From Zoogloea ramigera (GTDB taxonomy: Bacteria > Pseudomonadota > Gammaproteobacteria > Burkholderiales > Rhodocyclaceae): 43,870 nucleotides of DNA. How positions within the stretch are numbered: position 1 is the first letter of the stretch; each line of letters starts with the position of its first letter. The translations under genes and the position numbers were made by a program. Shown here one piece after another: positions 11,708-42,953 of this stretch. The notes beneath the pieces are model-generated. The model was not told the DNA's origin. It did not search any database and was given only the letters and a program-made list of their open reading frames with translations. The stretch is taken from contig NZ_BJNV01000045.1 in assembly GCF_006539865.1 (NCBI RefSeq), forward strand, positions 1 to 43,870, in the 5' to 3' direction.

Positions 11708-11756
11708 TTTTTCAAAGAAGCGGTTCACCGCCGTCATCAGTTTCTTGGGAGTCAGC

Positions 11757-14619: not shown

Positions 14620-14634
14620 CCAGCGCCCGGCGGC

Positions 14635-23470: not shown

Positions 23471-23499
23471 CCCCATTGATTCAAGCTTGAAGCGTACCG

Positions 23500-25370: not shown

Positions 25371-25467
25371 CATCGACTCCTTTGAAAGGTGGATTGAGGC
25401 CGCGCAGGGTTCCGGGCTTTACGAAGCGAAGGGTGTTTTTTGCACCACCGCTTTTCTTTATCGATAG

Positions 25468-25483
25468 CTGTAATTATATACAG
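25468..25483. promoter_or_regulatory. LexA (SOS) box between the small membrane gene and recombinase A
   Basis: CTGTAATTATATACAG is a perfect CTGT-N8-ACAG LexA operator with an all-AT centre. It lies in an AT-rich island in GC-rich DNA. It overlaps the -10 element of the minus-strand promoter for the small membrane protein and is 73 nt upstream of the recombinase start on the plus strand, so LexA could affect either gene. Confidence 0.75.
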
Positions 25484-25500
25484 CATCCGAGGTATTGCAA
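25473..25500 (-). promoter_or_regulatory. Sigma70 promoter of the small membrane gene
   Basis: On the minus strand, TTGCAA (25495-25500) and a perfect TATAAT (25473-25478) are 16 nt apart. The expected transcript start is near 25466, giving a leader of about 96 nt. The -10 is wholly inside the LexA box, the usual arrangement for a tightly repressed SOS gene. Confidence 0.65.
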
Positions 25501-25556: not shown

Positions 25557-26804
25557 ATGGACACGAAACTGACTGCCCCATCCGTGGCCGAGACCTCCTC
25601 ATCCGGCCTGATTCCCTTGCGCCCCCTCGATGTGCTCCAGATTCCGCCCGAACTTGACGGAAGCACCGGGGAAAACCGGGCCGATCCAGCCCGCCTGCAG
25701 ATCGATGCCGCCTGTGACGCCGACGCGATACGTTGTTTTCTCGTCGAGTACGACCGCTCCCCGGGCACGCTGCGTATCTACCAGCGGGAGTGCGAGCGCC
25801 TGTTGCTGTGGTCGCTGGTCGAGCGCCGGAAGCCCTTGTCCAGCCTCAATCGGCAGGATTTCGAGGGCTACCTCAACTTTCTTCTCGACCCTCAGCCCGC
25901 GGCCCGGTGGTGCGGCCCGAAGGCCGAGCGGGCATCCGAGAAGTGGCGGCCCTTCGTCGGCCCGCTCAGTGAAAGCGCCGTGCTCACCACCATGGCGGCG
26001 ATCAATTCGCTGATGCGCTACCTGGTGGATGCCGGCTACCTGCTGGGTAACCCGCTGGGCCTGATCCGGCAGCGTCGGCGCAAGATGGCCGCCGAGGCGG
26101 GCGGCCCGCTGCGGGCGGTGGCCAGCACCGAAGAGGTCGACAAGATCGAGCGTTTTCTCGACGAGCAGATGTGGCAGGCCGTCACCACGGCCATCGAGGC
26201 GATGCCCCGCGACGCCGAGCGGGGGCGCGACGAATACGAGCGGGCGCGCTTCATCGCGGCGACGCTCTACATGCTGGCCCCCCGGGCCGGCGAGCTCGAG
26301 AACCACCGCATGAACAGCTTCCGCGAGGAGCGTGGCCTGTGGTGGTGGCACGTGGTGGGCAAGGGCGGCAAGAAGGCCAAGGTGCCGGTGGCCGACGACA
26401 TGCTGCAGGCCCTGATCCGCTACCGCAAGCACCTGGGCCTGTCCGCCGTGCCCCGGCGGGACGACACGACGCCGCTGCTGGTGTCGGTCAAGGACGGCAG
26501 CCCGATCACCGCCCGGCGGCTCAACCAGATTCTCAAGAAGATCTTCTCGGCCGCCGCCGACCTGCTGCCTGCCGATGCCGAGCACAAGAAAGAGAAGCTG
26601 CGCGCCGCCTCGGCCCACTGGGGCCGCCATACCGGCATCACCGCCAAGCTCGACAGCGGCATCGACGAACGCTTTGTGCAGAAGGACGCCCGGCACACCG
26701 ACGCACGCACCACCCAGCGCTACATCCACGAAGAAGAGGAGCGCTGGCACGACGAGGCGCAGAAGCAGCGCCTGCCGTGGACAGGGCTCAAAACGGGGGG
26801 CTGA
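25557..26804 (+). CDS. Tyrosine recombinase A of the recombinase/KfrA pair
   Basis: This 415-residue protein is a tyrosine site-specific recombinase. Residues about 52-170 form a SAM-like core-binding domain (GTLRIYQRECERLLLW, NRQDFEGYLNFL). The catalytic residues are R243 (APRAGELEN), K269 (GKGGKK), H354 and R357 (HWGRHTG), H380 and the nucleophile Y389 (TTQRYIHEE). The spacing matches the family, so it looks active. Compared with XerC/XerD it is about 110 residues longer, with an extended N-terminus and a long insert around 110-140. The KfrA-like gene follows after 163 nt in the same direction. A LexA box lies 73 nt upstream. The target site is unknown. Confidence 0.88.
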   Translation: MDTKLTAPSVAETSSSGLIPLRPLDVLQIPPELDGSTGENRADPARLQIDAACDADAIRCFLVEYDRSPGTLRIYQRECERLLLWSLVERRKPLSSLNRQDFEGYLNFLLDPQPAARWCGPKAERASEKWRPFVGPLSESAVLTTMAAINSLMRYLVDAGYLLGNPLGLIRQRRRKMAAEAGGPLRAVASTEEVDKIERFLDEQMWQAVTTAIEAMPRDAERGRDEYERARFIAATLYMLAPRAGELENHRMNSFREERGLWWWHVVGKGGKKAKVPVADDMLQALIRYRKHLGLSAVPRRDDTTPLLVSVKDGSPITARRLNQILKKIFSAAADLLPADAEHKKEKLRAASAHWGRHTGITAKLDSGIDERFVQKDARHTDARTTQRYIHEEEERWHDEAQKQRLPWTGLKTGG

Positions 26805-26967
26805 GCGGGGGGCTGAGCAGGTTTGGGCGCCGTGGGCCGGCGCGTCGCCGTTAAAGTGTGTTGAATTGGCGTTTCGTCATGAGTATTACGTTATCCGGCC
26901 TTATTCGTATGCTATGGTGTCCTGTGTAGCAGTTTTTTGCATTCTTGGTGAGGCAGGGGAGATGTCC

Positions 26968-28011
26968 ATGGCGCGTAGCAGCAGTGTCAATTTCGAGTCG
27001 GTCGAGCAGATCTGTTTTCAGCTGCTCTCCCAGGGCGAGAACCCCTCTTTCAACCTCGTCTATGCCGAGCTGGGCAACAAGGGCTCGAGCGAAGTCGTGC
27101 AGCGTTACATCGACCAATGGCGTCGTGAGACGGGGGCGGCGTTCTTTCGCCAGCGCAGCATTCCGGGCATGCCCGACGAGCTCGTCTCGGCGGCGGACGC
27201 CTTCATGGCCAACGTCTGGTCGTTGTCGTTGCAACAGGCCGACCGGGTGCTGGCCAGCCAGCGCCAGGAGCTCGAAGCCGAGCGTGAGGCCGTGCATGTG
27301 CGCCTGCAGGCGGCCCACGACCGCATCCAGCAGCTCGAAGCCGCATCCAGTGACACGCTGCAAAACATCGCGAGCCTCGAAGAGGCCGTCCAGAGCCGCG
27401 ACGGCACGATTGCCGAGCTGCGCATCCAGATCCAGGAAACCCAGCGCCAGCGCGACGCCCTCGAGAGCCGTGTGAAGTTGCTGGAGGATGCCGCCGAGGG
27501 GCGCGAGCAGAAGTTCGTGGCCGAATCCGAACGCCTCACCCGGCTCTTGCAAAACGATCGCGACCGCTACACCGCCGCCCTCAAGGAAGAGCAGGAGCGC
27601 AGCGCCAGTGAGCGGGAGACCCTGCTCAAGCAGATCGAGCAGGCCCGCCAGGACAAGGTGGCCGAGATGCTCGCGCTGCGCCAGCAGGTCTCCAACCGGG
27701 AAGAGCGCGAGGCCCGTCAGCGCGAGCAGACCGAGGATGCCCGCGCCGCGCTGCGGGAGGCGGTCTCCAAAGCGCGCCAGATCGAGACATCCCTGGCTGC
27801 TGCTGAGGGGCGCATCGAACGCCTGCAGGCCCAGCTCAAGATTGCCAGCGACGCAGCCCACGGCAAGGAGTCGGCGGTGGCCGCCGCCGAGGCCCGCGCC
27901 CGGGCCATCGAAGAGCTTCGCCTCGCCGAAACAGTAAGGGCCCAGCGGGCCGAGGCCCTGGTGGCCGAGATGCAGGCCGAGCAGGCAGCCCGCCGCAAGC
28001 AGAGCGCCTGA
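26968..28011 (+). CDS. KfrA-like coiled-coil DNA-binding protein A
   Basis: The ATG at 26968 is 6 nt after AGGGGAG; the ATG at 26962 is directly adjacent to it and less likely. The 347-residue product has an N-terminal DNA-binding domain of the KfrA type (VEQICFQLLSQGENPSFNLV, then KGSSEVVQRYIDQWR, about residues 10-50), a short linker, and a coiled coil over residues about 90-340 rich in Glu, Arg, Gln and Ala. KfrA of plasmid RK2 is an autoregulated DNA-binding protein that forms filaments and supports plasmid stability. This gene is chromosomal in appearance and paired with a tyrosine recombinase, as is its homologue at 41099-42175. Confidence 0.85.
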   Translation: MARSSSVNFESVEQICFQLLSQGENPSFNLVYAELGNKGSSEVVQRYIDQWRRETGAAFFRQRSIPGMPDELVSAADAFMANVWSLSLQQADRVLASQRQELEAEREAVHVRLQAAHDRIQQLEAASSDTLQNIASLEEAVQSRDGTIAELRIQIQETQRQRDALESRVKLLEDAAEGREQKFVAESERLTRLLQNDRDRYTAALKEEQERSASERETLLKQIEQARQDKVAEMLALRQQVSNREEREARQREQTEDARAALREAVSKARQIETSLAAAEGRIERLQAQLKIASDAAHGKESAVAAAEARARAIEELRLAETVRAQRAEALVAEMQAEQAARRKQSA

Positions 28012-28121
28012 CGGCGACGCGGCGCCCGCTGGCCGCCCGGTGGCTTGGCGGCCCAAACTCGCGCCTCGAACCCCAGCCCGAAACGCCTTCAGCAGCAGAT
28101 CTATCCGGTAGACTGGGCGCC

Positions 28122-30308
28122 ATGCGCGCAATCACTTCTCCGACGATCCAACGCCTGGCGGCTCTCCTGGCGGCGGCCTTGCTCAGCGGCTGCGGCCAGG
28201 TGTGGAACGACCCGTACCCCGCGGCAGAGCGGGGCGGCAACATCCTGTACACCGCTTTCAGCCAGCGCCCCAAGCACCTCGACCCGGTGCAGTCCTACAG
28301 CGAGGACGAGGCGACCTTCCTGTACCAGATCTACGAGCCGCCGCTGCAGTACCACTACCTGAAGCGCCCCTTCCAGCTCCAGGTGGCCGCCGCGGCAGAG
28401 ATGCCCACGCTGCGCCAGTTCGACGCCGCCGGCAAGCTGCTGCCCGCCGGGGCCGACCCGGCGACGATCGCCCGCAGCGAGTACGAGATCCGCATCCGGC
28501 CCGGCATCCGTTACCAGCCCCACCCGGCCTTCGCCCTGGATGCTGCGGGCAAGCCGGTGTACCTCGACCTGCCGCTCGAGGTGGTCGCAACCAAGCGCAG
28601 CCTCGCCGACTTCCCCCACACCGGCACCCGGGAGCTCACCGCCGAGGACTACGTCTACCAGATCAAGCGCCTGGCGCACCCGCGCCTGCATTCCCCGGTG
28701 CTCGAGCTGATGGGCGACTACATCGTCGGCCTGAAAGACCTGCACGCCCGCCTGCTGGCCGACGAGAAGACGCGCAGCGCGAAGGGCGAGGGCGGCGGCT
28801 GGATCGACCTGCGCAACTACCCGATGGCGGGGGTCGAGCTGGTCGATCGCTACACCTACCGGGTGCACATCAAGGGCACCTACCCGCAGTTTCCCTACTG
28901 GCTGGCGATGCCCTTTTTCGCGCCGATGCCCGTCGAGGCCGAGCGCTTCTTCGCCCAGCCGGGGATGGCCGAGCGCAACTTGAGCCTAGACTGGTGGCCC
29001 ATCGGCACCGGCCCCTACATGCTCGTCGAGAACAACCCCAACGCCCGCATGGTGCTGGCCCGCAACCCCAATTTCCGGGGCGAGCGCTACCCCTGCGAGG
29101 GCGAGCCCGACGACCAGGCGGCGGGCCTGCTGGCCGACTGCGGCAAGCCGATCCCCTTCATCGACAAGGTGGTGTTCAGCCGCGAGAAGGAGAGCATCCC
29201 GGCCTGGAACAAGTTTCTGCAGGGTTACTACGACGCCTCTGGCGTGTCGTCCGACAACTTCGACCAGGCGGTGCAGATGGGCGGGCAGGGCGACGTGAGC
29301 CTGAGCGACGAGATGGCCGCCAAGGGCATCCGGCTCAACACCTCGGTGGCGCCGACGGTGATGTACATGGGCTTCAACATGCTCGACCCGGTGGTGGGCG
29401 GCGCGAGCGAGCGGGCCCGCAAGCTTCGGCTGGCGATCTCGATCGCCATCGACCAGGAAGAGTTCATCTCGGTGTTCCAGAACGGTCGCGGCGTGCCGGC
29501 CATGCACCCGATCCCGCCGGGCATCGCCGGCTACCGGGCCGGCGAGGCGGGGATCAACCCTTTTGTTTACGACTGGGCCGACGGCAAGCCCCAGCGCAAG
29601 CCCGTGGACGAAGCCCGCCGCTTGCTCGCCGAGGCGGGCTACCCCGGCGGGCGCGACGCGAAGAGCGGCGAGCCGCTGGTGGTGTATCTCGATACCACCG
29701 GCTCGGGCATGGGGGACAAATCCACCGTCGACTGGCTCGCCAAGCAGTTCCGCAAGCTCGATGTGCAGCTGGTCGTGCGCGCCACCGACTACAACCGCTT
29801 CCAGGACAAGATCCGCAAGGGCAACGCCCAGCTCTTTTATTGGGGCTGGAACGCCGACTACCCCGACCCGGAGAACTTCCTGTTCCTGCTCTACGGCGCC
29901 CAGGGCAAGGTGAAGAGCCAGGGCGAAAACGCCGCCAACTACCAGAACGCCGAATACGACCGGCTCTTCGAGCAGATGAAGGCGATGCCCGACAGCCCCG
30001 CGCGGCAGGCCATCACCGAGCGCATGCTGGCCATCCTTCAGCACGACGCGCCGTGGGTGTGGGGCTTCTACGAAAAAGCCTACACGCTCCAGCACGGCTG
30101 GCTGTACAACCGCAAGCCGGGCAAGATCGTCCGCAACACCCTCAAATATCAGCGCATCGACCTGGCCCAACGGGAGCGCCTGCGGGCCGAATGGAACCGG
30201 CCCATCCTGTGGCCGCTCGTGCTTGTCGGGCTGCTCGGCGCCTTGGTGGTGGCGCCGGCGGTAATGCACTACCGGCGCCGGGAGCAGGCCGGGGGGGACG
30301 GCGGCTGA
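28122..30308 (+). CDS. Family 5 extracellular solute-binding lipoprotein with C-terminal membrane helix
   Basis: The 728-residue protein begins with a lipoprotein signal and lipobox LLSGC (Cys24). The body matches SBP family 5 (peptide, oligopeptide or nickel binders of ABC importers): ILYTAFSQRPKHLDP, the YEPPLQYHYLKRP region, WWPIGTGPYMLVENNP and FYWGWNADYPDPENF. Unusually, residues about 697-716 form a hydrophobic helix followed by a basic tail (YRRREQ), so it would be anchored at both ends. No permease or ATPase gene is adjacent; the next gene is convergent. It may be an orphan binder or a sensor-like protein. The ligand is unknown. Confidence 0.88.
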   Translation: MRAITSPTIQRLAALLAAALLSGCGQVWNDPYPAAERGGNILYTAFSQRPKHLDPVQSYSEDEATFLYQIYEPPLQYHYLKRPFQLQVAAAAEMPTLRQFDAAGKLLPAGADPATIARSEYEIRIRPGIRYQPHPAFALDAAGKPVYLDLPLEVVATKRSLADFPHTGTRELTAEDYVYQIKRLAHPRLHSPVLELMGDYIVGLKDLHARLLADEKTRSAKGEGGGWIDLRNYPMAGVELVDRYTYRVHIKGTYPQFPYWLAMPFFAPMPVEAERFFAQPGMAERNLSLDWWPIGTGPYMLVENNPNARMVLARNPNFRGERYPCEGEPDDQAAGLLADCGKPIPFIDKVVFSREKESIPAWNKFLQGYYDASGVSSDNFDQAVQMGGQGDVSLSDEMAAKGIRLNTSVAPTVMYMGFNMLDPVVGGASERARKLRLAISIAIDQEEFISVFQNGRGVPAMHPIPPGIAGYRAGEAGINPFVYDWADGKPQRKPVDEARRLLAEAGYPGGRDAKSGEPLVVYLDTTGSGMGDKSTVDWLAKQFRKLDVQLVVRATDYNRFQDKIRKGNAQLFYWGWNADYPDPENFLFLLYGAQGKVKSQGENAANYQNAEYDRLFEQMKAMPDSPARQAITERMLAILQHDAPWVWGFYEKAYTLQHGWLYNRKPGKIVRNTLKYQRIDLAQRERLRAEWNRPILWPLVLVGLLGALVVAPAVMHYRRREQAGGDGG

Positions 30309-30369
30309 GCCGCTCCAGCACCCGGCGAATGAATCCCTGAAGGCCTGTTGCCCAGCGTGAGCGTCAGTC

Positions 30370-31011
30370 TCAACGCCCGGGCAGCAGGCCTTCGTCGCGC
30401 AGGCGTTTGCCGATCAACTGGATCAGGTCTTCGACCACCTCGCTGGATGAGGCGGGGTTGAAGGATTCGCTCACGGCCGACCACACCGGTTTGCCTTCGG
30501 GCAGGCGGTAGAGCAGGGTTTCGACAATCACCCGGGTGTCCTCGATCACCTGGGGCGTCGTGTAGGCATACGGATAGAAGGGGTGAAACGGGTAGAAGGG
30601 GCTGAAGTACGGGTAAGGCCCCCGGCGCCACAGGAAAGGCTCGGGCAGGAACGGGGGCTGGGGCGGGACGAGGCTCTGGGTCTTGTCCACCGACACCAGG
30701 CGGGCGAGCAGGGCGGCGTCGAAGCCGGCCTCGGTGAGGCGGGTGCGCACCTCGGGGGTGTCGAGCTGCGCCTCAAGGCCCAGCTGGTGGGCCGCCTGGG
30801 CCGCGAGGCTCGGCTGCAGGCTCTGAGCCACCCGGTTCTCGGCCATCCGGCGCAGGTTGTCGTCCTTCACGGCGACGAAGACGGCGAGCTTGCGCGGAGG
30901 GCCGGCGGTGTCGGCGCCGTCACGCCAGCTGGTCTTGATGGTCGACATGCCGCCGCAGCCGGCGAGGAGGAAGAGTGCGGCGAGCAGCGTGAGGATCAGG
31001 CGGTGTGGCAT
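30370..31011 (-). CDS. DUF4136-type lipoprotein
   Basis: The ATG at 31011 follows AAGGAG and gives 213 residues; the open frame further upstream is spurious. The signal peptide ends in lipobox LLAGC (Cys19), so it is a lipoprotein. The pattern STIKTSWRD near the N-terminus and the C-terminal TRVIVETLLYRLPEGKPVWSAVSE with LIQLIGKRLRDEGLL is that of DUF4136-like lipoproteins. A central stretch is rich in Pro, Tyr and Phe (YPYFSPFYPFHPFYPYAY). The role is unknown. It lies downstream of dnaE2 on the same strand, separated by a GC-rich repeat. Confidence 0.7.
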   Translation of the reverse strand: MPHRLILTLLAALFLLAGCGGMSTIKTSWRDGADTAGPPRKLAVFVAVKDDNLRRMAENRVAQSLQPSLAAQAAHQLGLEAQLDTPEVRTRLTEAGFDAALLARLVSVDKTQSLVPPQPPFLPEPFLWRRGPYPYFSPFYPFHPFYPYAYTTPQVIEDTRVIVETLLYRLPEGKPVWSAVSESFNPASSSEVVEDLIQLIGKRLRDEGLLPGR

Positions 31012-31084
31012 GGTGTGCTCCTTGGCGGGGACGGCTTGTCTGGTCAGACCTTGCGGCCGGCCCGGGATTCCCGCCGTCCCAACT

Positions 31085-31158
31085 AAACGCAGGGCCGCCC
31101 CAGGTTTTCTTTGACTGCCATGGTGGGGCGGGCCGAGCGAAGCCCTGTTTGGGGGCAC
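31085..31158. repeat. GC-rich interspersed repeat, copy 1
   Basis: This 74-bp element begins AAACGCAGGGCCGCCCC and ends GGGGGCAC. It is clearly related along its whole length to 42818-42889. It can fold through GCCGCCCC and GGGGCGGGC. It starts where dnaE2 ends (on the 3' side of dnaE2), and no transposase is linked to it. Confidence 0.75.
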
Positions 31159-34100
31159 TCAGTGGAAATCCCGGCTGTGGGTGGCCAGCTGGCCGAGCAG
31201 GGGGCTGCGGTCGACGACCCGTTTGGCGTGCAGATGCACGACACTCCCCTGGCGGGTGATCTGCCCATAGACGCCCAGCAGGCGGGCGCCGAGCAGGATG
31301 TGCCGCTCGGCCTCGAGGAGCTCCGGCCGCACCACCACGTTCACCCAGCCGGTCTCGTCTTCGAGGGTGACAAACATGGTACCCCTGGCGGTGCCGGGCC
31401 GCTGCCGGCAGGTGACGATGCCGGCGGCGCGGGCCAGCTTGCGGTCGTCGGCCGCAGCGATGTCGGCGGCGCTCAGGAAGCGCTCGGCACCCAGCTGGGC
31501 GCGTAAAAACACCAGCGGATGGCGGCCGAGGCTGAAACCCAGGCGGGCGTAATCGGCGACGAGGTCGTGGGTTTCGCCGGGGGGCGGCAGGGGCGGGGGC
31601 GGGTCGGCGACCGGGGCGTCGTGGAGCATGCCGGGGGGCGCCTGGCTGCCGGCGGCGGCCCATAAGGCCTGGCGCCGGTGGCCGGCCAGGCTGGCCAGCG
31701 CGCCGGCCGAGGCGAGGGTACGCAGCTCGGCAGTCGACAGGCCGGCGCGGCGGGCGAGGTCGTCCACCGAGCCGAAGGGCGCGCGTTGGCGGGCCCGGCT
31801 GATGCGCTCGGCGGCGGCGGCATTGAAGCCCTTGACGAGGCGCAGGCCAAGGCGCGCGGCGGGCGGGCGCTCGCCGGGGCGGGCTTCGAGGCTGCATTCC
31901 CAGTCGCTGGCGGCGGCATCGGCGGGCAGGACTTCGACCTGATGGCGGCGGGCGTCCTGGATCAGCTGGGACGGGCCGTAGAAGCCCATCGGCTGGCTGT
32001 TGAGGAGGCCGCATAAAAAGGCCGCCGGCTCGAAGCGCTTGAGCCAGGCCGACACATACACCAGCAGCGCGAAGCTGGCGGCGTGGGATTCCGGAAAGCC
32101 GTAGCTGCCGAAACCCTGGATCTGCTGGCACAGGGCTTCGGCGAACTCCCGGGCGTAGCCGCGGGCCAGCATGCCGGCCATCAGTTGGTTCTGGTAGCGC
32201 TGCAGGTCGCCCTTGCGGCTCCAGGCGCCCATGCTGCGGCGCAGCTGGTCGGCCTCGCCGGGGGTGAAGCCGGCGGCGACCACGGCCAGCTGCATCACCT
32301 GCTCCTGGAAAATCGGCACGCCGTGGGTGCGGCTGAGCACGGGCTCGATCTCGGGCCGGGGGTAGCGGATGGGCTCGTGGCGGGTGAGCTTTTCCCGCGC
32401 CTGCAGGTAGGGATGGACCATGCCGCCCTGGATCGGCCCGGGCCGTACGATGGCCACTTCCACCACCAGGTCGTAGTAGCAGCGTGGCCGGAGGCGCGGC
32501 AGCATGCTCATCTGGGCGCGGGATTCGACCTGGAACACGCCCATTGCGTCGGCCTGGCACAGCATGGCGTAAACCGCGGGGTGTTCGCGGGGGATGTCGG
32601 CCATCGTGAAGGGCTGGCCGCGCTGCTGGGACACCAGGGCCAGGCTGCGGCGGATCGCCGACAACATGCCCAGGGCCAGCACGTCGACCTTGAGCAGGCC
32701 GAGGGTTTCAAGATCGTCCTTGTCCCACTGGATGACGGTGCGCTCGGCCATCGCGGCGTTTTCGACGGGCACGAGCTCGGCCAGCGGCCCGCGGGAGATG
32801 ATGAAGCCGCCCACGTGCTGGGACAAATGGCGGGGAAAGCCGACCAGCTGGTTGGCGAGCTCGAGGAGCATCCGCACCCGCGGGCTGTCCGGGTCGAGGC
32901 CGGCTTCGCGCACCCGCTCGGCAGCCACCTGGAGCCCGTCCCACCAGGCCAGCCGGCGGGAGAGGTGGTCGAGCTGGCCGGGGTCGAAGCCCAGCGCCCG
33001 GCCCACGTCGCGCAGCGCGCTACGGGGGCGGTAGCGGATCACGGTGGCGGCCAGGGCGGCCCGGCTGCGGCCGTATTTGGTGTAGATGTACTGGATGACT
33101 TCCTCGCGCCGGTCGTGCTCGAAATCGACGTCGATGTCGGGGGGCTCGTTGCGCTCCCGGGAGATGAAGCGCTCGAAGAGCAGGCGGGCCTCACCCGGGT
33201 CGACCTCGGTGATCCCCAGCGCGTAGCACACCACTGAGTTGGCAGCCGAGCCCCGGCCCTGGCACAGGATGCCGCGGCTGCGGGCGAAGCGGACGATGTC
33301 TTCGACGGTGAGGAAGAAGGCCTCGTAGCGCAGCTCGGCGATCAGGGCGAGTTCCTTGAGGGCCTGCTCACGGACTGCGGTGGGAATCCGCCCGCTGCCG
33401 TCGGCCCCCGGCGGGTAGCGCCGACGCAGGCCCTGGCCGACCAGGGCGCGCAGGTGGGCGCTGGGGGTGAGGCCCGGCGGGACGATCTCTTCGGGGTATT
33501 CGTAGCGCAGCTCGCCGGGCGAGAAGTGGCAGCGGGCGGCGATGGCCAGGCTCTCGGCCAGCCATTCGGGCGGATGGCGGCGGGCCAGCACGCTGCGCGG
33601 CTGCAGGCGCTGCTCGGCGTTGGCGGCGAGGAGGGTGCCGGCTTCGTCGAGGCTGACCCGGTGGCGCAGGGCGGTGAGCACGTCGGCCAGGCGGCGGCGG
33701 GAGGCGTCGTGCATCAGCGGCGCACCGGTGGCGACCACCGGGATGCCGGCACCGGCGGCGGCCGCGGCGATGTGCCGGCGGCGGGTGGTGTCGTCGGGGC
33801 CGAGCAGGAGCGGGGCGGCCAGCCAGGCGGCGCCGGGGAAGCGCCGGGCCAGCCAGTCGGCGTCGTCGGCCAGTTGCTGCGGATTGCAGGCCACGTCGCC
33901 CGGGGGCAGCAGCAGGGCCAGGCAGCCGGGCAGGCCGGCGTCGAGGTCGGCGCGGGTGAGGTGGTAGCTGCCTTTTTCGGCGGCCCGGCGGCCGCGGGTG
34001 ATGAGGCTGGAGAGGCGGCCGTAAGAGCTGCGATCGGTGGCCAGCAGCACCAGCCAGGGGCCGTCTGCCAGCTGGAGGTGGGTGCCGACGATCAGCTGAA

Positions 34101-34311
34101 TCGCACCCTGCTGTTGTTGCCACGCCGCGTAGGCCCGCACCATGCCGGCCAGCGAACATTCGTCGGTGATGGCCAGCGCGGTGTAGCCGAGGCTGGCCGC
34201 CTGGGTGAGCAGCTCATCCGGGTGTGAGGCGCCGGTGAGGAAGCTGAAGCAGGAGCGGCAGTAGAGCTCGGCAAAGGGCGGCGGAGGGGGGGGCGAACCG
34301 GCATTGGGCAT
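31159..34311 (-). CDS. dnaE2: Error-prone DNA polymerase DnaE2 (ImuC)
   Basis: This C-family polymerase carries out damage-induced mutagenic synthesis with ImuA and ImuB. From ATG 34311 it has 1050 residues, normal for DnaE2. The N-terminal PHP domain starts FAELYCRSCFSFLTGASHP; the catalytic Asp cluster PDIDVDFEHDRR is at about residues 389-400; AMGVFQVESRAQMSMLPRL is typical; the C-terminus has the OB domain and ends SRDFH. An earlier TTG (34341) would run through the operator and is unlikely. A perfect LexA box lies 8 nt upstream, so transcription is probably SOS-controlled with a very short leader. imuA and imuB are not adjacent. Confidence 0.95.
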   Translation of the reverse strand: MPNAGSPPPPPPFAELYCRSCFSFLTGASHPDELLTQAASLGYTALAITDECSLAGMVRAYAAWQQQQGAIQLIVGTHLQLADGPWLVLLATDRSSYGRLSSLITRGRRAAEKGSYHLTRADLDAGLPGCLALLLPPGDVACNPQQLADDADWLARRFPGAAWLAAPLLLGPDDTTRRRHIAAAAAGAGIPVVATGAPLMHDASRRRLADVLTALRHRVSLDEAGTLLAANAEQRLQPRSVLARRHPPEWLAESLAIAARCHFSPGELRYEYPEEIVPPGLTPSAHLRALVGQGLRRRYPPGADGSGRIPTAVREQALKELALIAELRYEAFFLTVEDIVRFARSRGILCQGRGSAANSVVCYALGITEVDPGEARLLFERFISRERNEPPDIDVDFEHDRREEVIQYIYTKYGRSRAALAATVIRYRPRSALRDVGRALGFDPGQLDHLSRRLAWWDGLQVAAERVREAGLDPDSPRVRMLLELANQLVGFPRHLSQHVGGFIISRGPLAELVPVENAAMAERTVIQWDKDDLETLGLLKVDVLALGMLSAIRRSLALVSQQRGQPFTMADIPREHPAVYAMLCQADAMGVFQVESRAQMSMLPRLRPRCYYDLVVEVAIVRPGPIQGGMVHPYLQAREKLTRHEPIRYPRPEIEPVLSRTHGVPIFQEQVMQLAVVAAGFTPGEADQLRRSMGAWSRKGDLQRYQNQLMAGMLARGYAREFAEALCQQIQGFGSYGFPESHAASFALLVYVSAWLKRFEPAAFLCGLLNSQPMGFYGPSQLIQDARRHQVEVLPADAAASDWECSLEARPGERPPAARLGLRLVKGFNAAAAERISRARQRAPFGSVDDLARRAGLSTAELRTLASAGALASLAGHRRQALWAAAGSQAPPGMLHDAPVADPPPPLPPPGETHDLVADYARLGFSLGRHPLVFLRAQLGAERFLSAADIAAADDRKLARAAGIVTCRQRPGTARGTMFVTLEDETGWVNVVVRPELLEAERHILLGARLLGVYGQITRQGSVVHLHAKRVVDRSPLLGQLATHSRDFH

Positions 34312-34318
34312 GGGTTGA

Positions 34319-34334
34319 CTGTATAAATAAACAG
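34319..34334. promoter_or_regulatory. LexA (SOS) box of dnaE2
   Basis: CTGTATAAATAAACAG is a perfect CTGT-N8-ACAG operator directly upstream of dnaE2. On the minus strand it contains TATACA, a possible -10, with TTGATT 15 nt further up as a weak -35. dnaE2 is a well-known LexA target. Confidence 0.85.
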
Positions 34335-34422
34335 TCACCAAATCAAGCGCGGCCTGCTCGGGATGCCCGGGACACCCGCAGTACGGTGGGGGCCTCGTCC
34401 CGGTGAGGCCCCCGCAGGCCTG

Positions 34423-36267: not shown

Positions 36268-36590
36268 CGCGAATCCTTCAGGGTGTCGGGGCTCAGGTAG
36301 TCGACGGAAGGCTGGGCCTTGAGTGCGGCGAGGGCGCGCCCGCAGCCGGGGTCACTTGCCGGGCAGCGCAGCCGGTAAACGTGGCTGCGGGGCGAGAGGG
36401 ACGACACAAAGGCGAATTCTGCGCCACTGGCCGCGGCAAGCCGGGCGAGGGTGGCCGGCGCGGCGCCATCGACGGGCTCGGTGAAGCCGATGATGACCTG
36501 CACCGGAGCGGCGGGCGCGGGCGCCGTGGCGCAGGCCTGGGCGCCCACCAGGCTGGCGGCGACCAGCAGGAGGCGGCCGGTGGGCGTCAC
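36264..36590 (-). CDS. Small exported I9-propeptide-like protein, possible partner of the S8 protease
   Basis: The likely start is GTG 36590, giving 108 residues with a signal peptide; Cys20 in GAQAC is a weak lipobox, so it may be a lipoprotein or be cut by signal peptidase I. The rest reads like a peptidase inhibitor I9 domain: strand VQVIIGFTEPV, helix ATLARLAAASG, strand HVYRLRC, helix RALAALKAQPSVDYLSPD. The last piece matches the usual end of a subtilisin propeptide (ALKADPDVEYVEPD type). The stop overlaps the start of the S8 protease gene, so they are translationally coupled. An inhibitor or folding helper for that protease is a reasonable guess. The start codon is uncertain. Confidence 0.6.
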   Translation of the reverse strand: MTPTGRLLLVAASLVGAQACATAPAPAAPVQVIIGFTEPVDGAAPATLARLAAASGAEFAFVSSLSPRSHVYRLRCPASDPGCGRALAALKAQPSVDYLSPDTLKDSR

Positions 36591-36612
36591 GCCGGGCCTT
36601 CGGGGCGGACGC

Positions 36613-36861
36613 TCAGCGCGGCGGGCCGCGGCGGGCAGGCTTCGGGGCGGCGGCGGGGGCCGGCTTGGAATAGAGCTTGAAGACACGCTTGGCGTCCTGC
36701 TCTGCGCGCAGCTGGGTGCAGAGCGAGGGGTCGTCGTCGTGTTCGCTGAAATAGCCGTCGGCCTGGGCACGCATCACCAGCTTCACCGAAGCGTCTTCGC
36801 TCAGGCCGAAGCGTTCGAAAATAAGGGTGGTGACTTCGTCCAGGTGCTGTTCGTAATTCAT
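36613..36861 (-). CDS. Hypothetical small protein
   Basis: I do not recognise this 82-residue protein. It starts MNYEQHLDEVTTLIFERFG, is acidic in the first 50 residues and mostly helical by pattern, and ends in a Pro/Ala/Lys/Arg-rich tail (KPAPAAAPKPARRGPPR). There is no signal peptide or membrane segment, so it is cytoplasmic. It ends 22 nt before the I9-like gene on the same strand and is divergent from the MOSC gene. The composition of the first half looks like real coding sequence. Confidence 0.55.
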   Translation of the reverse strand: MNYEQHLDEVTTLIFERFGLSEDASVKLVMRAQADGYFSEHDDDPSLCTQLRAEQDAKRVFKLYSKPAPAAAPKPARRGPPR

Positions 36862-36968
36862 CGTCGGTCCAGGTTGGGTGGGCAGGGGAGTTTGCTCGGG
36901 GTTCAATTGTGGAAGGATAATCCCTTTCACGCCCTGTGATCCCACCGAGTTCGACCTGCGAGGCCCCC

Positions 36969-37766
36969 ATGTCTGCTGTTCCTGTTCTTTCTGCCCTTTA
37001 CCGTTATCCGGTCAAGTCCATGCGCGGCGAGTCCCTCGATGCCAGCCCGGTGGGGCCCCACGGCTTGCCCTACGATCGAATGTGGATGGTGGCCGACGAA
37101 GGTGGCCGTTTCGTGACCGGGCGGACGCATCCCGAGCTGGTGCTGGTGTCCGCCCGGCCGGGGCCGGCGGGTGTCACCCTCAGTGCGCCCGGGCGTGACG
37201 AGCTGTTCGTGCCCAACAGTGCCTTCACCGAGGCCTGGCCGACGACGGTCTGGGGCAGCGAGTTTCCGGCCTGGCGGGGCGCTGCGGCGGCTGATGCGTG
37301 GGTCTCAGCCTACCTGGGCAGCCGTCTGCGCTTCATGTGGATCGGAGCAGCCACCGCGCGCCGGGTAAAAACCGACAGCGACGTCCCCCTTACCTTTGCC
37401 GATGGCTATCCGCTGCTGCTGATCGGCCAGGCCTCGCTCGACGCGCTGTCGGCGCGCCTCGGCCGGCCGCTGGCGATGGCTCGTTTTCGGCCCAATCTGG
37501 TCGTCTCCGGTGCCGAGGCCTTCGCCGAGGACAGCTGGAAGCGCATCCGCATCGGTGGGGCCATCTTCCGCATTGCCAAGCCCTGCGAGCGCTGCGTGTT
37601 CACCACCGTCGACCCCGACACCGGCCACAAGGCCCTCGACCAGGAGCCGCTGCGCACCCTGGCGAAGTTCCGCAAGGCGCCGGATGGCGTGCTCTTCGGG
37701 CAGAACGTGATCGCCGAGGGCGAGACCGAGCTGGTGGTGGGAATGCCGGTTGAAGTGCTCGATTGA
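36969..37766 (+). CDS. MOSC domain protein
   Basis: The ATG at 36969 gives 265 residues. An N-terminal MOSC beta-barrel domain (LSALYRYPVKSMRGESLD, YDRMWMVADEGGRFVTGRTHP in parts) is followed by a MOSC domain (MARFRPNLVVSG, WKRIRIGGAIFRIAKPCERC, FGQNVIAEG). The conserved Cys in KPCERC is the expected molybdenum ligand. Members include YcbX and the mARC proteins, which reduce N-hydroxylated compounds using a molybdenum cofactor and electrons from a ferredoxin or flavoprotein. This protein lacks the C-terminal 2Fe-2S domain seen in YcbX. It stands alone, divergent from the small hypothetical gene. Confidence 0.9.
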   Translation: MSAVPVLSALYRYPVKSMRGESLDASPVGPHGLPYDRMWMVADEGGRFVTGRTHPELVLVSARPGPAGVTLSAPGRDELFVPNSAFTEAWPTTVWGSEFPAWRGAAAADAWVSAYLGSRLRFMWIGAATARRVKTDSDVPLTFADGYPLLLIGQASLDALSARLGRPLAMARFRPNLVVSGAEAFAEDSWKRIRIGGAIFRIAKPCERCVFTTVDPDTGHKALDQEPLRTLAKFRKAPDGVLFGQNVIAEGETELVVGMPVEVLD

Positions 37767-37899
37767 GCGCCTGAATGAACCGGCAGGGCTACGCCGCACG
37801 CCCGACATCCAGCGCCGCCGCCGTCCAAATTTGGGCGGGGCGGGCCGAACTGGATAGAATCGCGGCTACTTTACCGTTCAACCCAGGCCAAAGAAGCTC

Positions 37900-39213
37900 A
37901 TGACTATCACCTCCCTGAATCAACTTCCGCAAACCAACATCTTTCGCAAGGGCGACGTGTTCGTGCTGTTCGGCGAGCTCTTCGGGCGCGGCTACGCCAG
38001 CGGCCTCGTCGGCGAAGCGCGGAAGGCCGGCATGGAGATCGTCGGCATCACCGTTGGCCGCCGCGACGAAAACAACGCGCTGCGCCCCCTGAACGCCGAA
38101 GAGCTGGCCGCCGCCGAGGCCAACCTGGGTGGCAAGATCATCAACGTGCCGCTGATGGCCGGCTTCGATCTCGACGCCCCGGCCGGCGAGCCCACGCCCA
38201 CCGATCTCCTCGGCAGCCTGACCCTGAAAAGCTGGGAGGCCGACAAGCTCGACTGGGCCCATATCGAGAAATGCCGCCAGGTCGGCATCCAGCGCTTCAA
38301 GAGCGGCGTGGCCCAGGTGATGGCCGAGCTCGACGGCCTGATCGGCGAGGGGCGCAACGTCTTCTTTGCCCACACGATGGCGGGCGGCATCCCCAAGGCC
38401 AAGGTCTTCATGGTGATCGCCAACCGCATCTACAAGGGTCGCGGCGACCGCTTCATGTCGTCCCAGACCCTGCTCGACAGCGACCTGGGCAAGCTGATCC
38501 TGCAGAACTTCGACGAAGTGTCGGCCAACAGTTTTCAGTACCTCATCGAAGGCAGCGCGGCGATCCGCGCCCGCGTCGAGGCCGCTGGCGGCCAGGTGCG
38601 CTATTCGGCCTATGGCTACCATGGCACCGAGATCCTGCAGGGCGGCGCCTACCAGTGGCAGACCTACACCAACTACACCCAAGGCTACGCCAAGATGCGC
38701 CTCGAGCGCATCGCCCAGGACGCCTGGGCCCAGGGCATCAAGGCCACGGTGTACAACTGCCCGGAGATCCGCACCAACTCCACCGACGTGTTCGCTGGCG
38801 TCGAGCTGCCGCTGATCTCGCTGCTCCATGCCCTCAAAAAAGAGGGCGGCGGCGCCTGGGCCGATGCCCAGTGGCAGGCCTGCCGCGACCTGCTGGCCGA
38901 CGGCCACACCCTTGAAGACGTGCTGCAGAAGGTCGCCGATTTCCACGCCAGCGAGGTGATGCAGGGCTACCGCGACTTCGCCGCCTGGCCGATGCCCAAC
39001 AGCCCGGCCCAGGCCGAGCTGACCATCGGCACCTCCGACGACATCGCCCAGATGCACACCGACCGCAAGGCGCTGATCACCGATCTGCTCAGCACCCTGG
39101 TGCTGGAAGCCACCGGGCCGCTGATCCTGCGCGAATCGTCGGCGCCGGCCGGCCCGGTGCTGTGGCTCAACCACGACATCATCGCGCGGCAGCTCAACCA
39201 GCTCCACGCCTGA
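37900..39213 (+). CDS. FabMG-type putative enoyl-ACP reductase
   Basis: The 437-residue protein matches, as I recall it, the FabMG family of putative enoyl-ACP reductases, some of which came from triclosan-resistance screens. Visible features are the N-terminal FRKGDVFVLFGELFGRGYASGLV and VGRRDENNALRPL, the central FFAHTMAGGIPKAKVFM and the segment YTNYTQGYAK (Y256-x8-K265), a spacing like that of FabV catalytic residues; Y259 and Y263 are alternatives. It would be a soluble nucleotide-dependent enzyme. A classical fabI lies 3.7 kb downstream, so this would be a second, non-FabI reductase. The name rests on memory of the family, not on a search. Confidence 0.6.
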   Translation: MTITSLNQLPQTNIFRKGDVFVLFGELFGRGYASGLVGEARKAGMEIVGITVGRRDENNALRPLNAEELAAAEANLGGKIINVPLMAGFDLDAPAGEPTPTDLLGSLTLKSWEADKLDWAHIEKCRQVGIQRFKSGVAQVMAELDGLIGEGRNVFFAHTMAGGIPKAKVFMVIANRIYKGRGDRFMSSQTLLDSDLGKLILQNFDEVSANSFQYLIEGSAAIRARVEAAGGQVRYSAYGYHGTEILQGGAYQWQTYTNYTQGYAKMRLERIAQDAWAQGIKATVYNCPEIRTNSTDVFAGVELPLISLLHALKKEGGGAWADAQWQACRDLLADGHTLEDVLQKVADFHASEVMQGYRDFAAWPMPNSPAQAELTIGTSDDIAQMHTDRKALITDLLSTLVLEATGPLILRESSAPAGPVLWLNHDIIARQLNQLHA

Positions 39214-39523
39214 GCCCGCTCGGGCGCTGCGGGCGACGCTCCTTCGGGGGTTCGTCCGTTGCCGCGGCGCCGGAGCGCGGGCAGTCTGGCAGCGCTGACC
39301 AGCGAAAGCCGGGTTTTGGCGCTGCCTGCACCCCTGGGCGGCAAGCTGGCGCGATGAGTGGCGCCGAGGGCTTGAAGGGGTGCAAACGGGCCTTCGGCGT
39401 CCATTTTTGTATGTTCTGAAAATTACTATTTTCAGAAATTGAGGCATGGAAAAAGGCGCCGCCCCACTGCATCGGCCACAAAACTCACTCAATCGCCGTC
39501 GCCCGGCTGGCCGGCTCAGTTTC
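39214..39523. other. Intergenic region between convergent FabMG-type and recombinase B genes
   Basis: This 310-bp region has no supported gene. It contains a perfect AT-rich inverted repeat at 39414-39437. The remainder is GC-rich, with a small hairpin just after the FabMG-type stop (GCCCGCTCGGGC at 39214-39225). Confidence 0.5.
39414..39437. repeat. AT-rich 10-bp inverted repeat near recombinase B
   Basis: Arms TTCTGAAAAT (39414-39423) and ATTTTCAGAA (39428-39437) are perfectly complementary around TACT. It lies 87 bp beyond the 3' end of recombinase B in otherwise GC-rich DNA. It could be a recombination core site, an operator or a weak bidirectional terminator; sequence alone does not decide. 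Confidence 0.7.
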
Positions 39524-40897
39524 TCAGTTTTCGTCGAGCAGCCTGGAGATCGAATCGATCGCTCCACCACGGGCCTCGTCGTCGAGGTGCACGTAGTACT
39601 TGCTGGTTGTCCGCGGGTCTTTGTGGCGGAGATGTTCGGCGGTCATCGCCAGTGACACCTGGCCTAGCGCGAAGTGACTGCCCCGCGTGTGCCTGAGCCA
39701 GTGGGACGCGGCCTGGCGCAGGATGGGCGCCCAGTCGGGGTTCTGCCTGGCGGCAAACGGCGCGGCGTAGCTGAAGAAACGCTGCAGTTCGGTGTTCAGG
39801 TAGCCGGCCGTCACGCCTTGGCCGGTTTTCAGCGCATGGTTGGGGCGCACGCGCTTGGGGGTGAGCTTGGCGATCAGCGGTGTCTGGCCCTCGTCGGGCG
39901 ATGGATGGCCCGGCAGGCCGCGGGCGAGCCGATAGCGGATGAGCGCGTCGAGCGCCTGATCGTCTAGCGTGACACGGTCGGGGCCGTCGGTAGCCGTCCT
40001 GCCCTTGCCGATCACCTTCCAGACCCAGCGCTGCCCGCTCCGGACGATGGCGTTCATCATCGTCTCGGTGAGCTCCGCCCGGCGGCTGGCCGCTGCGTAG
40101 CCGAACAGCAGGATGCAGCGCAGGCGCTCGCGACGCTCCTGGGGCCAGCAGCGGGCCTGCCCCGGCTCTGTTGGGTCGTTGGCCAGGCCCGGTGAGTCGG
40201 GAATCTGCCAGGTGTTTTCATCGGAATCGAGGAAGCCGCGGAGCCAGCGCCACAGGGCGATCGAGAACGCCTTGCCCTGGTCCTGGTTGTCGAGGGCGAT
40301 GGCCTCCTGGCGGCGCTGGCGCGCGTAGCGCTCCGGGCTCAGTTGCAGCTTTTCGAGCTCGTCGTGGGAGATCTCCTCGCCGGTGAGCCTGCCGAGCTTC
40401 ATGCAGGGGTTGGCGGCCAGGTAGCCGCCCTCGTGTAGAAAACGGAAGAAGCTGCGGATCGTCGTGTCGGCCCGGCGACGGCTGCCGATCGAGAGCCCGC
40501 GCAAGCGTGGCGTCTGCCCGTCGCCTGCAGCGCCGTCCGGCTTGAAGGGCATGAAATCCGCCGGCCAGCCCTCCGCCGGCAGATAAGGCACGGCGAGCCA
40601 CACCCGGAACGCCTCCAGATCGCCCAGCGTGGCACTCGACACCGGCCGGCCGCGGAGATAGAGCATGAAGGCCATGAAGCGCCGCAGCTCCTGCAGGTAG
40701 GCCTTGCGGGTGTGGGCGTTCTTGGCCCGGGTGTTCAGCCAGACGACGATCGCCTCGTGGTCGCTGTCCACGCCGAGGGCGTTGGCTGAACTCACGGCCC
40801 GCTGCGTGCCCGGCACGCCCTGGAGGTGCGCCGGTACAGGCGGCAGCGCATTGCCTGCACTGCTGAATGAAGCTTTCACGGGTAAATCCTTGCTCAT
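39524..40897 (-). CDS. Tyrosine recombinase B of the recombinase/KfrA pair
   Basis: From ATG 40897, preceded by AGGGGC, the product has 457 residues; an ATG at 40915 is also in frame. The core-binding domain (about 45-165) has AHTRKAYLQELRRFMAF and TTIRSFFRFLHEGGYL around a long insert. Catalytic residues are R272 (SRRAELTE), K298 (GKG), H399 and R402 (HWLRHTRG), H425 (LRHKD) and the nucleophile Y434 (TTSKYYVH). It resembles recombinase A in its catalytic motifs and length but is clearly diverged. It is divergent from the second KfrA-like gene, whereas pair A is codirectional. An AT-rich inverted repeat lies beyond its 3' end. Confidence 0.88.
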   Translation of the reverse strand: MSKDLPVKASFSSAGNALPPVPAHLQGVPGTQRAVSSANALGVDSDHEAIVVWLNTRAKNAHTRKAYLQELRRFMAFMLYLRGRPVSSATLGDLEAFRVWLAVPYLPAEGWPADFMPFKPDGAAGDGQTPRLRGLSIGSRRRADTTIRSFFRFLHEGGYLAANPCMKLGRLTGEEISHDELEKLQLSPERYARQRRQEAIALDNQDQGKAFSIALWRWLRGFLDSDENTWQIPDSPGLANDPTEPGQARCWPQERRERLRCILLFGYAAASRRAELTETMMNAIVRSGQRWVWKVIGKGRTATDGPDRVTLDDQALDALIRYRLARGLPGHPSPDEGQTPLIAKLTPKRVRPNHALKTGQGVTAGYLNTELQRFFSYAAPFAARQNPDWAPILRQAASHWLRHTRGSHFALGQVSLAMTAEHLRHKDPRTTSKYYVHLDDEARGGAIDSISRLLDEN

Positions 40898-41098
40898 CGC
40901 GCCCCTGCCCTCCATGTGACTGAGCTGATTTAACTGAAGTAAAGCTCAAGATGGCTAATTGTAACGATAACAAACAAACTCGCCATTATTAATAGTAAAA
41001 CGCAACAAAATTGCGCAATGGCGCAATATATGAAACGATAGCAACGTAAAGTTCCGCATGTCGCGGATCGGGCAAAATACCGACGGAAAGGGCTGGCC
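40898..41098. promoter_or_regulatory. Divergent regulatory region of recombinase B and KfrA-like B
   Basis: This 200-bp AT-rich region must hold both promoters. It contains the perfect inverted repeat TTGCGC-AATG-GCGCAA (41011-41026), in which GCGCAAT also occurs as a direct repeat, and an imperfect palindrome CCGCATGTCGCGG near 41056. RK2 KfrA represses its own promoter by binding inverted repeats, so 41011-41026 is a candidate operator. No promoter matches consensus well. Confidence 0.5.
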
Positions 41099-42175
41099 AT
41101 GGCGAGTGCCGTGACTTACGAGATGGTCGAGGATGTCTGCAATCACCTGGCCGCCGGCGGCGAGAGCCCGACCTACCTGAAGGTGCATCAGCGTCTGGGC
41201 AAAGGCTCCACGCGCATCGTGTCGGCCTACATCCGGCAGTGGCGGGAGGCCCAGGTGCTCAGCCAGGCGCTGGAGCGTGATCCGCTTTTTGGGGAATGGC
41301 CGGAGGCCTTGCAGCTGAAGGCCCGGAGCCTGTTCGATGGCCTGCTGGCGCTCTCGGCCGAGGCCGCAAACGCCTCGGCCGAGAGCCAGAGATCGAGTTT
41401 CGAGGAGCGGGCGCGGGTGCTTGCCGCAGAGGCGCAGGAGGCCGCCCGCGTGGCAGATGACGCCCTCGGCAAGCTGCGCACCGAGCAAGCCGAAAGCGCA
41501 CGTCTCGCGGCGGAGATCAGGTCTCTCGAGGCAGCGGCGGAAGGCCGGCAGAACATGATCTCCGACCTGATCGGGCAGCGTGCGCTGCAGGAAGCCCGCC
41601 TCGCCGAAGCGGCGGCGGGCCTGGAAGCCCTGCGGGCCGAGCACGCGCAGCAAGTCACGCGACTGGCCGACGAGGCCGCGGCCGAGCGTCAGCGCTTGCT
41701 GGAGGAGATCCGCCTGGAGCAGGAAAGAGCCGGCGGTGAGCGCGAACTTCTGATGCGCCAGACCGACAGCCTACGCCAGGATCACATGGCGGCGGTGGAA
41801 GAGTTGCGGCAGCGGGTGGCGAAGCTGGATGGCGTACTGGTGAGCCAACGGCAAAAGAACCAAGAGGCGGAGCAGCGCGCTTCAGCGCTCGCGGCGAGCC
41901 GGCAGCAACTCGAGGAGACAGTGGCCGCGGCCGAGCGTCGGTCGGCTGGGCTGGAGGACGAGCTGACCCGGCTGCGGGCCCGGCAGGTTGCGGATGCGGC
42001 CAGGCTTGGCGGGCAGGAGACGCAGATCTCCATGCTCATGCAGCAGCTGGGCCGGGAGTCACAACGGGCCGTGGCCGCTGAAGAGCGCCTCCAGGCGCTC
42101 ATGCTTAAACCGCCCGCAGCCCCCTCCCCCCTGCCTGCGGCCGCGGGGCCCGACGCTCCTGAGGGTGGAGCGTGA
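41099..42175 (+). CDS. KfrA-like coiled-coil DNA-binding protein B
   Basis: The 358-residue protein starts at ATG 41099 after GAAAGGG. Residues about 5-48 are the KfrA-type DNA-binding domain (VEDVCNHLAAGGESPTYLKV, then KGSTRIVSAYIRQWR). This aligns without gaps to the same region of the protein at 26968-28011, so the two are paralogues. A coiled coil rich in Ala, Glu, Arg and Gln covers residues about 75-335, and a Pro/Ala tail follows. It is divergent from recombinase B and convergent with the ProQ-like gene. A role in controlling the recombinase or organising its DNA site is inferred from the repeated pairing. Confidence 0.85.
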   Translation: MASAVTYEMVEDVCNHLAAGGESPTYLKVHQRLGKGSTRIVSAYIRQWREAQVLSQALERDPLFGEWPEALQLKARSLFDGLLALSAEAANASAESQRSSFEERARVLAAEAQEAARVADDALGKLRTEQAESARLAAEIRSLEAAAEGRQNMISDLIGQRALQEARLAEAAAGLEALRAEHAQQVTRLADEAAAERQRLLEEIRLEQERAGGERELLMRQTDSLRQDHMAAVEELRQRVAKLDGVLVSQRQKNQEAEQRASALAASRQQLEETVAAAERRSAGLEDELTRLRARQVADAARLGGQETQISMLMQQLGRESQRAVAAEERLQALMLKPPAAPSPLPAAAGPDAPEGGA

Positions 42176-42924: not shown

Positions 42925-42953
42925 CCTCGGCCTATCTCAATGGAGGCACCTTG

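Follow-up and report, generated by a model that had tools for sequence, protein, structure and literature searches.

The stretch of DNA analyzed here (the window: a 43,870-bp contig, G000:C45, of a 4.6-Mb Zoogloea genome) carries two gene pairs, A and B, each comprising a tyrosine recombinase and a protein with a KfrA_N domain, and so raises the question of what such a recombinase does and whether it needs its neighbor. A first-pass annotation, made from the letters without database searches, had located both pairs, and Pfam matches confirmed them there, together with the orientations it gave (A codirectional, B divergent; Table 1). It took both for copies of one module in which the KfrA-like protein would control or organize a recombination site, and offered replicon resolution, DNA inversion and mobility as possible functions; for pair A the evidence favors the first. 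We consider it very likely that the pair A recombinase, YR-A, and a 28-bp site elsewhere in the window form a single-recombinase Xer/dif system for the resolution of chromosome dimers in Zoogloea and related Betaproteobacteria, replacing XerC/XerD. The proposal rests on catalytic residues kept in YR-A, the absence of XerC/XerD, a site conserved between unconserved flanks at a reversal of FtsK-orienting polar sequences (KOPS), and retention of the FtsK gamma domain.

YR-A and the missing XerC/XerD pair

The catalytic residues of YR-A are complete, as the first-pass annotation had asserted: R243, K269, H354/R357, H380, and Y389, which we take to be the catalytic positions, are invariant in 10 aligned relatives. 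YR-A aligns with the recombinase of pair B, YR-B, across most of its length (28% identity, E 3e-27), and the two KfrA_N proteins, Kfr-A and Kfr-B, share 29% identity (E 9e-17), with small gaps in the DNA-binding domains that had been described as aligning without any. The top PDB match to an AlphaFold2 model of YR-A (mean predicted local distance difference test score 82.6, predicted template-modeling score 0.60) was XerH bound to difH (E 3.8e-9).

We surveyed 40 genomes, including that of the window, 23 of which are Zoogloea. YR-A was present in 21 of the 23 (interrupted in G014; 84–94% identical within the genus where intact) and was not found in G016 (80% complete) or G018 (86% complete); it also occurred in Methyloversatilis and other Betaproteobacteria. 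Its left-hand neighbors (a yceG-like gene to an ankyrin gene, 19979–24950) were matched in 19–20 of the 40 loci, and the genes to the right of pair A, up to 36770, in at most three. With a genus-wide locus, conserved left-hand neighbors and no patchiness, YR-A does not look like the integrase of a mobile element. In an order-wide set of 399 genomes, requested at a completeness of at least 95%, YR-A (called at E ≤ 1e-90) was found in six (G000, G039, G292, G314, G450, and G245), of which only G450 and G245 were new, because identical site coordinates revealed G292 to be G056 and G314 to be G055. A homolog 67% identical to YR-A lies on an 816-kb plasmid of Variovorax WDL1, the genome of which has kept XerCD. 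In a tree built by a quick method with XerC rows left out, the YR-A clade (41 rows, Variovorax included) and the pair B recombinases (seven rows) each had a Shimodaira–Hasegawa-like approximate likelihood ratio support of 100.

Canonical XerC and XerD are missing from the YR-A clade. YR-A itself reached the threshold of neither NCBIfam model (45 bits for XerD, cut-off 330; the XerC score is given below). With the XerC model, no match above 175 bits was found in any of 17 Zoogloea genomes (G000–G016), and in the window's own genome the best match was YR-A itself, at 54.9 bits; all 10 genomes from other families had a match of at least 300 bits and nine of them a second of at least 267 bits, the tenth being 68% complete. 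The XerD model was applied to 47 genomes, 28 from Zoogloea or the YR-A clade (G000, G017–G022, G039–G057, G059, and G060, among which G053 repeats G039 and G018 had no YR-A found) and 19 others. None of the 28 exceeded 218 bits and 27 stayed below 191 bits; 16 of the 19 others had an XerD above 340 bits plus a second match of at least 249 bits, the exceptions being G062 (one match), G065 (only 168 bits), and G066 (none). In a second, overlapping set, XerC/XerD were found at E ≤ 1e-50 in none of six genomes with YR-A (only G450 and G245 being new), whereas both were found in all 21 without it (15 listed genomes of the same family, G023, and G034–G038). No XerC/XerD pair was found in the clade, with two metagenome-assembled genomes (MAGs) carrying subcanonical XerD-like matches. 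As a separate observation, G065 and G066 (loci L133 and L134) are MAGs with only a distant divergent module of the kind described below, in which canonical XerC/XerD were likewise not found, reflecting either incomplete assembly or an independent replacement.

A conserved 28-bp site at the replication terminus

A scan of the terminus yielded the form ACTTCTGAAAA-N6-TTTTCAGAAGT in Methyloversatilis, Zoogloea and the window; earlier scans of Methyloversatilis had missed it, and it was located once the KOPS switch indicated the region. This proposed dif is the sole match in the window at up to three mismatches (0.00 expected). The survey used the pattern TTCTGAWAA-N6-TTWTCAGAA with at most one mismatch, and the reversed pattern, as a control, had no matches throughout. 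The pattern occurred in 18 of the 23 Zoogloea genomes and all 15 good-quality assemblies, as a single copy in each except G000, which has two; the five genomes without it are 72–86% complete. Among 54 further genomes it was found in 18 of the 20 from the YR-A clade (14 exact, four with one mismatch) versus four of the 34 others. Outside the clade, G058 has an exact match just upstream of its own plasmid-type recombinase and G061 a match with one mismatch ~1.6 kb from its recombinase, and the one-mismatch matches in G026 and G066 are probably due to chance. In the last set the pattern was present in G450, G245, G292, and G314 (two of them repeats) versus none of the 15 same-family genomes without YR-A. 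When the copies are aligned, the arms are kept, as identical inverted repeats in most copies, and the flanks differ; the spacer CAGTAA is kept in Zoogloea and most Methyloversatilis copies (TAGTAA in the window). In 12 Zoogloea genomes a single contig carries both YR-A and dif; the distance between them is ~1.4–4 kb in 10 of these, 13.9 kb in the window, and 31.8 kb in G020. In six others they lie on separate contigs.

In the five genomes sampled, this conserved 28-bp site lies at the replication terminus, as judged from the strand of GGGNAGGG, the E. coli KOPS motif. The main strand switch falls at 377,794–380,846 in G006 (dif at 379,025), at 1,016,058–1,020,653 in G041 (dif at 1,017,083), and at 2,061,931–2,070,074 in G044 (dif at 2,065,135, with a second copy at 2,072,126). 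For the complete genome G245, in which YR-A (1,132,724) and dif (1,459,649) are 327 kb apart, a switch at dif was predicted beforehand and sampled by seven 8-kb stretches; it fell within 1.408–1.500 Mb, as predicted, with four plus and no minus KOPS between gene and dif and no plus and three minus KOPS beyond, and with a GC skew of +0.025 between gene and dif and −0.034 beyond. In G450, checked after G245, the last plus KOPS is at 3,842,922, dif is at 3,844,141, and three minus KOPS follow in the stretch that starts at 3,852,001; an earlier stretch also has one minus KOPS. GC skew broadly agrees with dif at the terminus. The product of the five switch intervals gives a random-placement probability of ~2e-13, which is only rough, since each interval was taken at the main switch and two of the genomes, G041 and G044, belong to one genus.

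The site may also have been used by phages. In G044 (Methyloversatilis universalis EHg5, L250:3133–10151), filamentous phage genes lie between the two dif copies, 7.0 kb apart, and encode a Zot-type assembly protein (1.9e-22), a replication initiator (1e-16), and a TspB-like protein (3.3e-6); a related inovirus-like replication initiator (56%) lies ~5 kb from dif in G043. The G044 prophage resembles dif-integrating elements of other bacteria, as described in PMC9765430. In G043, this second inovirus-like initiator is accompanied by a regulator near dif (L277, ~9810–15854). The FtsK gamma domain was present in all 19 genomes tested, 12 of them from the YR-A clade (G053 repeating G039).

We propose that YR-A would bind dif (ACTTCTGAAAA-CAGTAA-TTTTCAGAAGT) at the terminus as two protomers, on its symmetrical 11-bp arms. 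Once sister chromosomes have fused to a dimer, septal FtsK, steered by KOPS, would bring the two dif copies together and drive recombination there, with YR-A exchanging strands across the 6-bp spacer to give two monomers.

Alternatively, the palindrome might be a conserved terminator of transcription, placed between convergent genes, and YR-A might be a resident mobile-element recombinase with another site. The palindrome does extend outward in some genomes, is often downstream of kfrA, and is followed by a T run in L038. However, most Zoogloea and Methyloversatilis copies share the spacer despite differing flanks and neighboring genes, genomes have one or rarely two copies, the site is at the KOPS switch even when 327 kb from YR-A, and prophage genes lie between two of its copies, which together make a terminator highly improbable. 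Nor does it seem at all probable that YR-A resolves dimers jointly with an unrecognized second recombinase, or that pair B does so, helped by YR-A: further tyrosine recombinases do exist in these genomes, and the 3′ end of YR-B is ~55–84 bp from dif in three of the seven genomes that have it (the window, G012, and G021, not the other four), but YR-B is found in only seven of 23 Zoogloea genomes, and arms that are identical inverted repeats in most copies fit one enzyme.

Several observations weigh against a single-recombinase dif system. The KOPS motif is that of E. coli, KOPS counts are small, and some KOPS have the opposite orientation: minus at 373,639 and plus at 412–418 and 439–442 kb in G006, minus at 996,051 and 1,006,594 in G041, and minus at 2,051,403 and 2,054,516 in G044. 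GC skew is noisy, its sign changing 30–50 kb beyond dif in G006. Like YR-A, dif was not found in G016 and G018; G051 and G059, from the YR-A clade, have no dif match, and the one-mismatch matches of G039, G040, G054, and G056 in that clade resemble the likely chance matches of G026 and G066. The dif pattern alone is not diagnostic, because it is also carried by 18 viral contigs (L254–L271), several of them T4-like. The XerD-like matches in the MAGs G057 (217.7 bits) and G051 (190.5 bits) could be partial true genes, and the absence of XerC/XerD may reflect incomplete assembly, because these enzymes were also not found in the MAGs G065 and G066. Finally, template-modeling (TM) scores of the PDB matches are low (0.33–0.35 for XerH), and with a score of 0.34 the domain arrangement of YR-A is different or uncertain.

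Two candidates did not survive examination. The viral contigs might have been phages integrating at dif, but this is unsupported: of the eight tested against Pfam (10 proteins), four were T4-like (portal or sheath genes), one had a VapE-like protein, and three had no match, and the pattern there is probably unrelated. A palindrome at 25462–25489, upstream of YR-A, was tried as dif and reread as a LexA-like box because it fits CTGT-N8-ACAG, lies just outside the G006 KOPS switch (375,285 vs 377,794–380,846), and did not show up in the Methyloversatilis stretches. As for the second dif-like site of the window's genome (G000:C27:12143–12166, L272; spacer TCCCGG), it is on a 56.9-kb contig that also carries serine resolvase-like open reading frames (ORFs) and a lone KfrA_N gene (C27:50757), the third in the genome, with no recombinase ORF of at least 150 amino acids in the adjoining 3.3 kb; this contig is possibly a plasmid using the host recombinase.

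KfrA, family origin and related systems

Having set out the case for YR-A, we returned to its KfrA_N neighbor. The first-pass annotation knew of no described system in which KfrA is paired with a recombinase on the chromosome, yet TnpS/TnpT of Tn4651 had already been described, TnpT being a KfrA_N protein (2.6e-26). It had also named recurrence of the pairing in other genomes as a check, the outcome of which turned out to depend on the branch examined. In Zoogloea, a KfrA_N gene lies at most 0.6 kb downstream of YR-A in 19 of 21 genomes (18.9 kb downstream in G020, past an insert common to G019). In the remainder of the YR-A clade, one was found near none of 21 loci (at most 5 kb on each side, some stretches being shorter), and G039 has no KfrA_N in its genome, so KfrA is not a fixed partner of the pair A recombinase. 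At more distant loci (35–57% identity; in Caballeronia, Paraburkholderia, Cupriavidus, Vreelandella, and others), a KfrA_N gene is divergent from the recombinase in 28 of 36 among the matches listed, and those closest to YR-A (L128, L129, L131, and L132; 46–57%) are without one among the same matches. In many of these modules the two genes are separated by a region with an 11-6-11 core, for example atttgacatta-N6-taatgtcaaat, and the recombinase and KfrA histories, which the first-pass annotation had wished to see compared, are congruent (Mantel rho 0.80, n = 28, 0 of 5000 permutations; some rows are close relatives). A distant YR-A/YR-B homolog is also carried by ~580 Klebsiella plasmid records.

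The frequent pairing and congruent histories at these distant loci, together with the description of TnpT as a helper of TnpS (PMC7157771, in the text available), are what could be expected if both window pairs were one mobile two-gene module with KfrA organizing the recombination site, as originally proposed. We regard this as unlikely for YR-A, because KfrA adjoins it within the clade only in Zoogloea, the putative Kfr-A operator repeat was found only at its own promoter and not near dif (10 loci and the window), and YR-A occupies a genus-wide locus with conserved left-hand neighbors. Instead, pairing in the distant modules and none near YR-A outside Zoogloea suggest that YR-A most likely descends from a recombinase + KfrA_N module and now acts alone; on our best reading of the sequences, it would have been drawn from a plasmid-type family of such modules, which elsewhere reside on plasmids and other DNA and have their own 11-6-11 sites. 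Its ancestor may have been paired with KfrA, or Zoogloea may have regained kfrA. We would give an even chance to a fuller history in which a plasmid-type recombinase, once paired with KfrA, was captured onto the chromosomes of several betaproteobacterial lineages, displaced XerC/XerD, and became the sole enzyme at a symmetrical dif, under SOS control in Zoogloea and used by filamentous phages, with XerL of Legionellales perhaps another branch.

XerL/dif is the nearest published idea to the YR-A system. According to the available text of that work (PMC9765430), XerL is, like YR-A, a single recombinase where XerCD is missing, with uninterrupted inverted dif arms and a terminus location; its tyrosine is at 387/389 (389 in YR-A), a mobile element is integrated at dif, the gene is on a plasmid in one genus, the arms are 10 or 12 bp (11 bp for YR-A), and the survey covered Legionellales only. 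The text of the paper does not mention KfrA. A plasmid homolog from Aquicella, one of the Legionellales, is 40.9% identical to YR-A.

Other systems share fewer features. XerS/difSL and XerH/difH also have one long recombinase, a dif near the gene in many genomes and a terminus location, and XerH–difH is the top structural match noted above; XerS has 356 and XerH 354–362 amino acids (PMC5357621, text available), whereas YR-A is longer, with a dif of symmetrical 11-bp arms, and comes from a plasmid-type family with KfrA_N partners. The likeness to XerC/XerD-dif lies in a 28-bp 11-6-11 terminus site, KOPS convergence and the kept FtsK gamma, the difference in having one recombinase, which scores 61.6 bits against an XerC cut-off of 335. 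TnpS/TnpT/rst of Tn4651 (pWW0) resembles pair B and the distant modules in its divergent KfrA_N protein and the core and accessory repeats between the genes; unlike it, pair A is codirectional, and TnpS had no significant BLASTP similarity to YR-A or YR-B (E 0.12 for YR-B, both being tyrosine recombinases).

Among the open PMC matches listed, neither dif nor Xer was found to be reported for Zoogloea or Methyloversatilis (subscription journals and preprints were outside the scope). A 2009 survey (PMC2731167) found no dif motif in 12.2% of the proteobacterial species studied; most of these lacked known Xer enzymes, and the survey described the gap in Aromatoleum aromaticum EbN1 as surprising. 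YR-A and the 28-bp site would provide a concrete enzyme and site for one group without XerCD, suggest that a plasmid-type enzyme can take over a core task of the cell cycle from the usual one, and offer a compact pair of recombinase and site (28 bp, with symmetrical arms) that may need no partner.

Putative control of pair A and layout of pair B

Near the YR-A promoter lies a palindrome, CTGTAATTATATACAG, that fits CTGT-N8-ACAG, which we take to be the LexA box consensus. The window has two matches to this consensus versus 0.42 expected, a number not rare by chance (six of 100 shuffles reach two). The case for a LexA box at YR-A lies in its conservation across Zoogloea, the form CTGTRAKTATATACAG occurring once per genome in 20 of 23 and always upstream of YR-A. 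The other match (34319–34334) falls where a DNA polymerase III alpha-type gene (31159–34341, minus strand) begins; judging by its length, we take this gene for dnaE2, and we read both matches as putative LexA boxes. The one at YR-A points to possible induction by the SOS response, as would be fitting for an enzyme whose proposed task is to clean up after homologous recombination.

The imperfect inverted repeat upstream of kfrA-A, the arms of which covary between genomes, is the only window match above 9 to its matrix (33.3), a matrix that includes the repeat itself. We rejected it as a core recombination site, because the repeat accompanies kfrA in the loci in which kfrA and YR-A are apart, and because a search near dif found no further copy; Kfr-A probably regulates its own promoter in Zoogloea. 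The start of kfrA-A was chosen as the ATG at 26968 from conservation in aligned relatives.

Table 1. Features of the two pairs and the proposed dif in the window.
Feature	Position	Strand	Description
YR-A	25557–26804	+	Tyrosine recombinase, 415 amino acids, Pfam Phage_integrase 8.3e-12; proposed single Xer recombinase
kfrA-A (Kfr-A)	26968–28011	+	KfrA_N 3.9e-21; DNA-binding domain and coiled coil
Proposed dif	39412–39439		tgTTCTGAAAA-TTACTA-TTTTCAGAAat; form ACTTCTGAAAA-N6-TTTTCAGAAGT
YR-B	39524–40915	-	Accessory tyrosine recombinase, 463 amino acids, Pfam Phage_integrase 1.8e-6; 3′ end 84 bp from dif
kfrB (Kfr-B)	41099–42175	+	KfrA_N 2.1e-7; divergent from YR-B
LexA-box-like palindrome	25468–25483		CTGTAATTATATACAG; upstream of YR-A
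Imperfect inverted repeat, operator candidate	26874–26899	+	Upstream of kfrA-A
Conserved element, accessory site candidate	40952–40989 (approximate limits)		From YR-B/kfrB intergenic alignment
Palindromic core candidate	41005–41032		Inner ATTGCG-CCATTG-CGCAAT on the minus strand

Pair B shares the layout of TnpS/TnpT, a divergent recombinase and KfrA_N gene with two intergenic elements between them. Both elements are kept where the pair is intact. The core candidate is a perfect 11-6-11 in G020 and pairs at seven of 11 positions in the window; the second, accessory repeat is no more than a conserved element of weak symmetry. As to a location of pair B within a Tn3-family transposon, no transposase was found among the window proteins scanned, and no search for terminal repeats was made. 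With moderate confidence we interpret pair B as an accessory module, either mobile or for resolution, that is parked at dif.

Individual genomes vary around this pair. In G015, kfrB is seemingly broken near its start (L058), and a KfrA_N match without the first positions lies ~28 kb away (G015:C431:57197); in G020 pair B is split; and in G017 a third recombinase of the family (L051:5611–6831, 38% to YR-A) lies close to dif, beside pair B. In the window, different enoyl-ACP reductase genes, FabMG (37900–39213) and FabI (42951–43745), flank dif and pair B, and two tRNA genes lie at 11240–11418.

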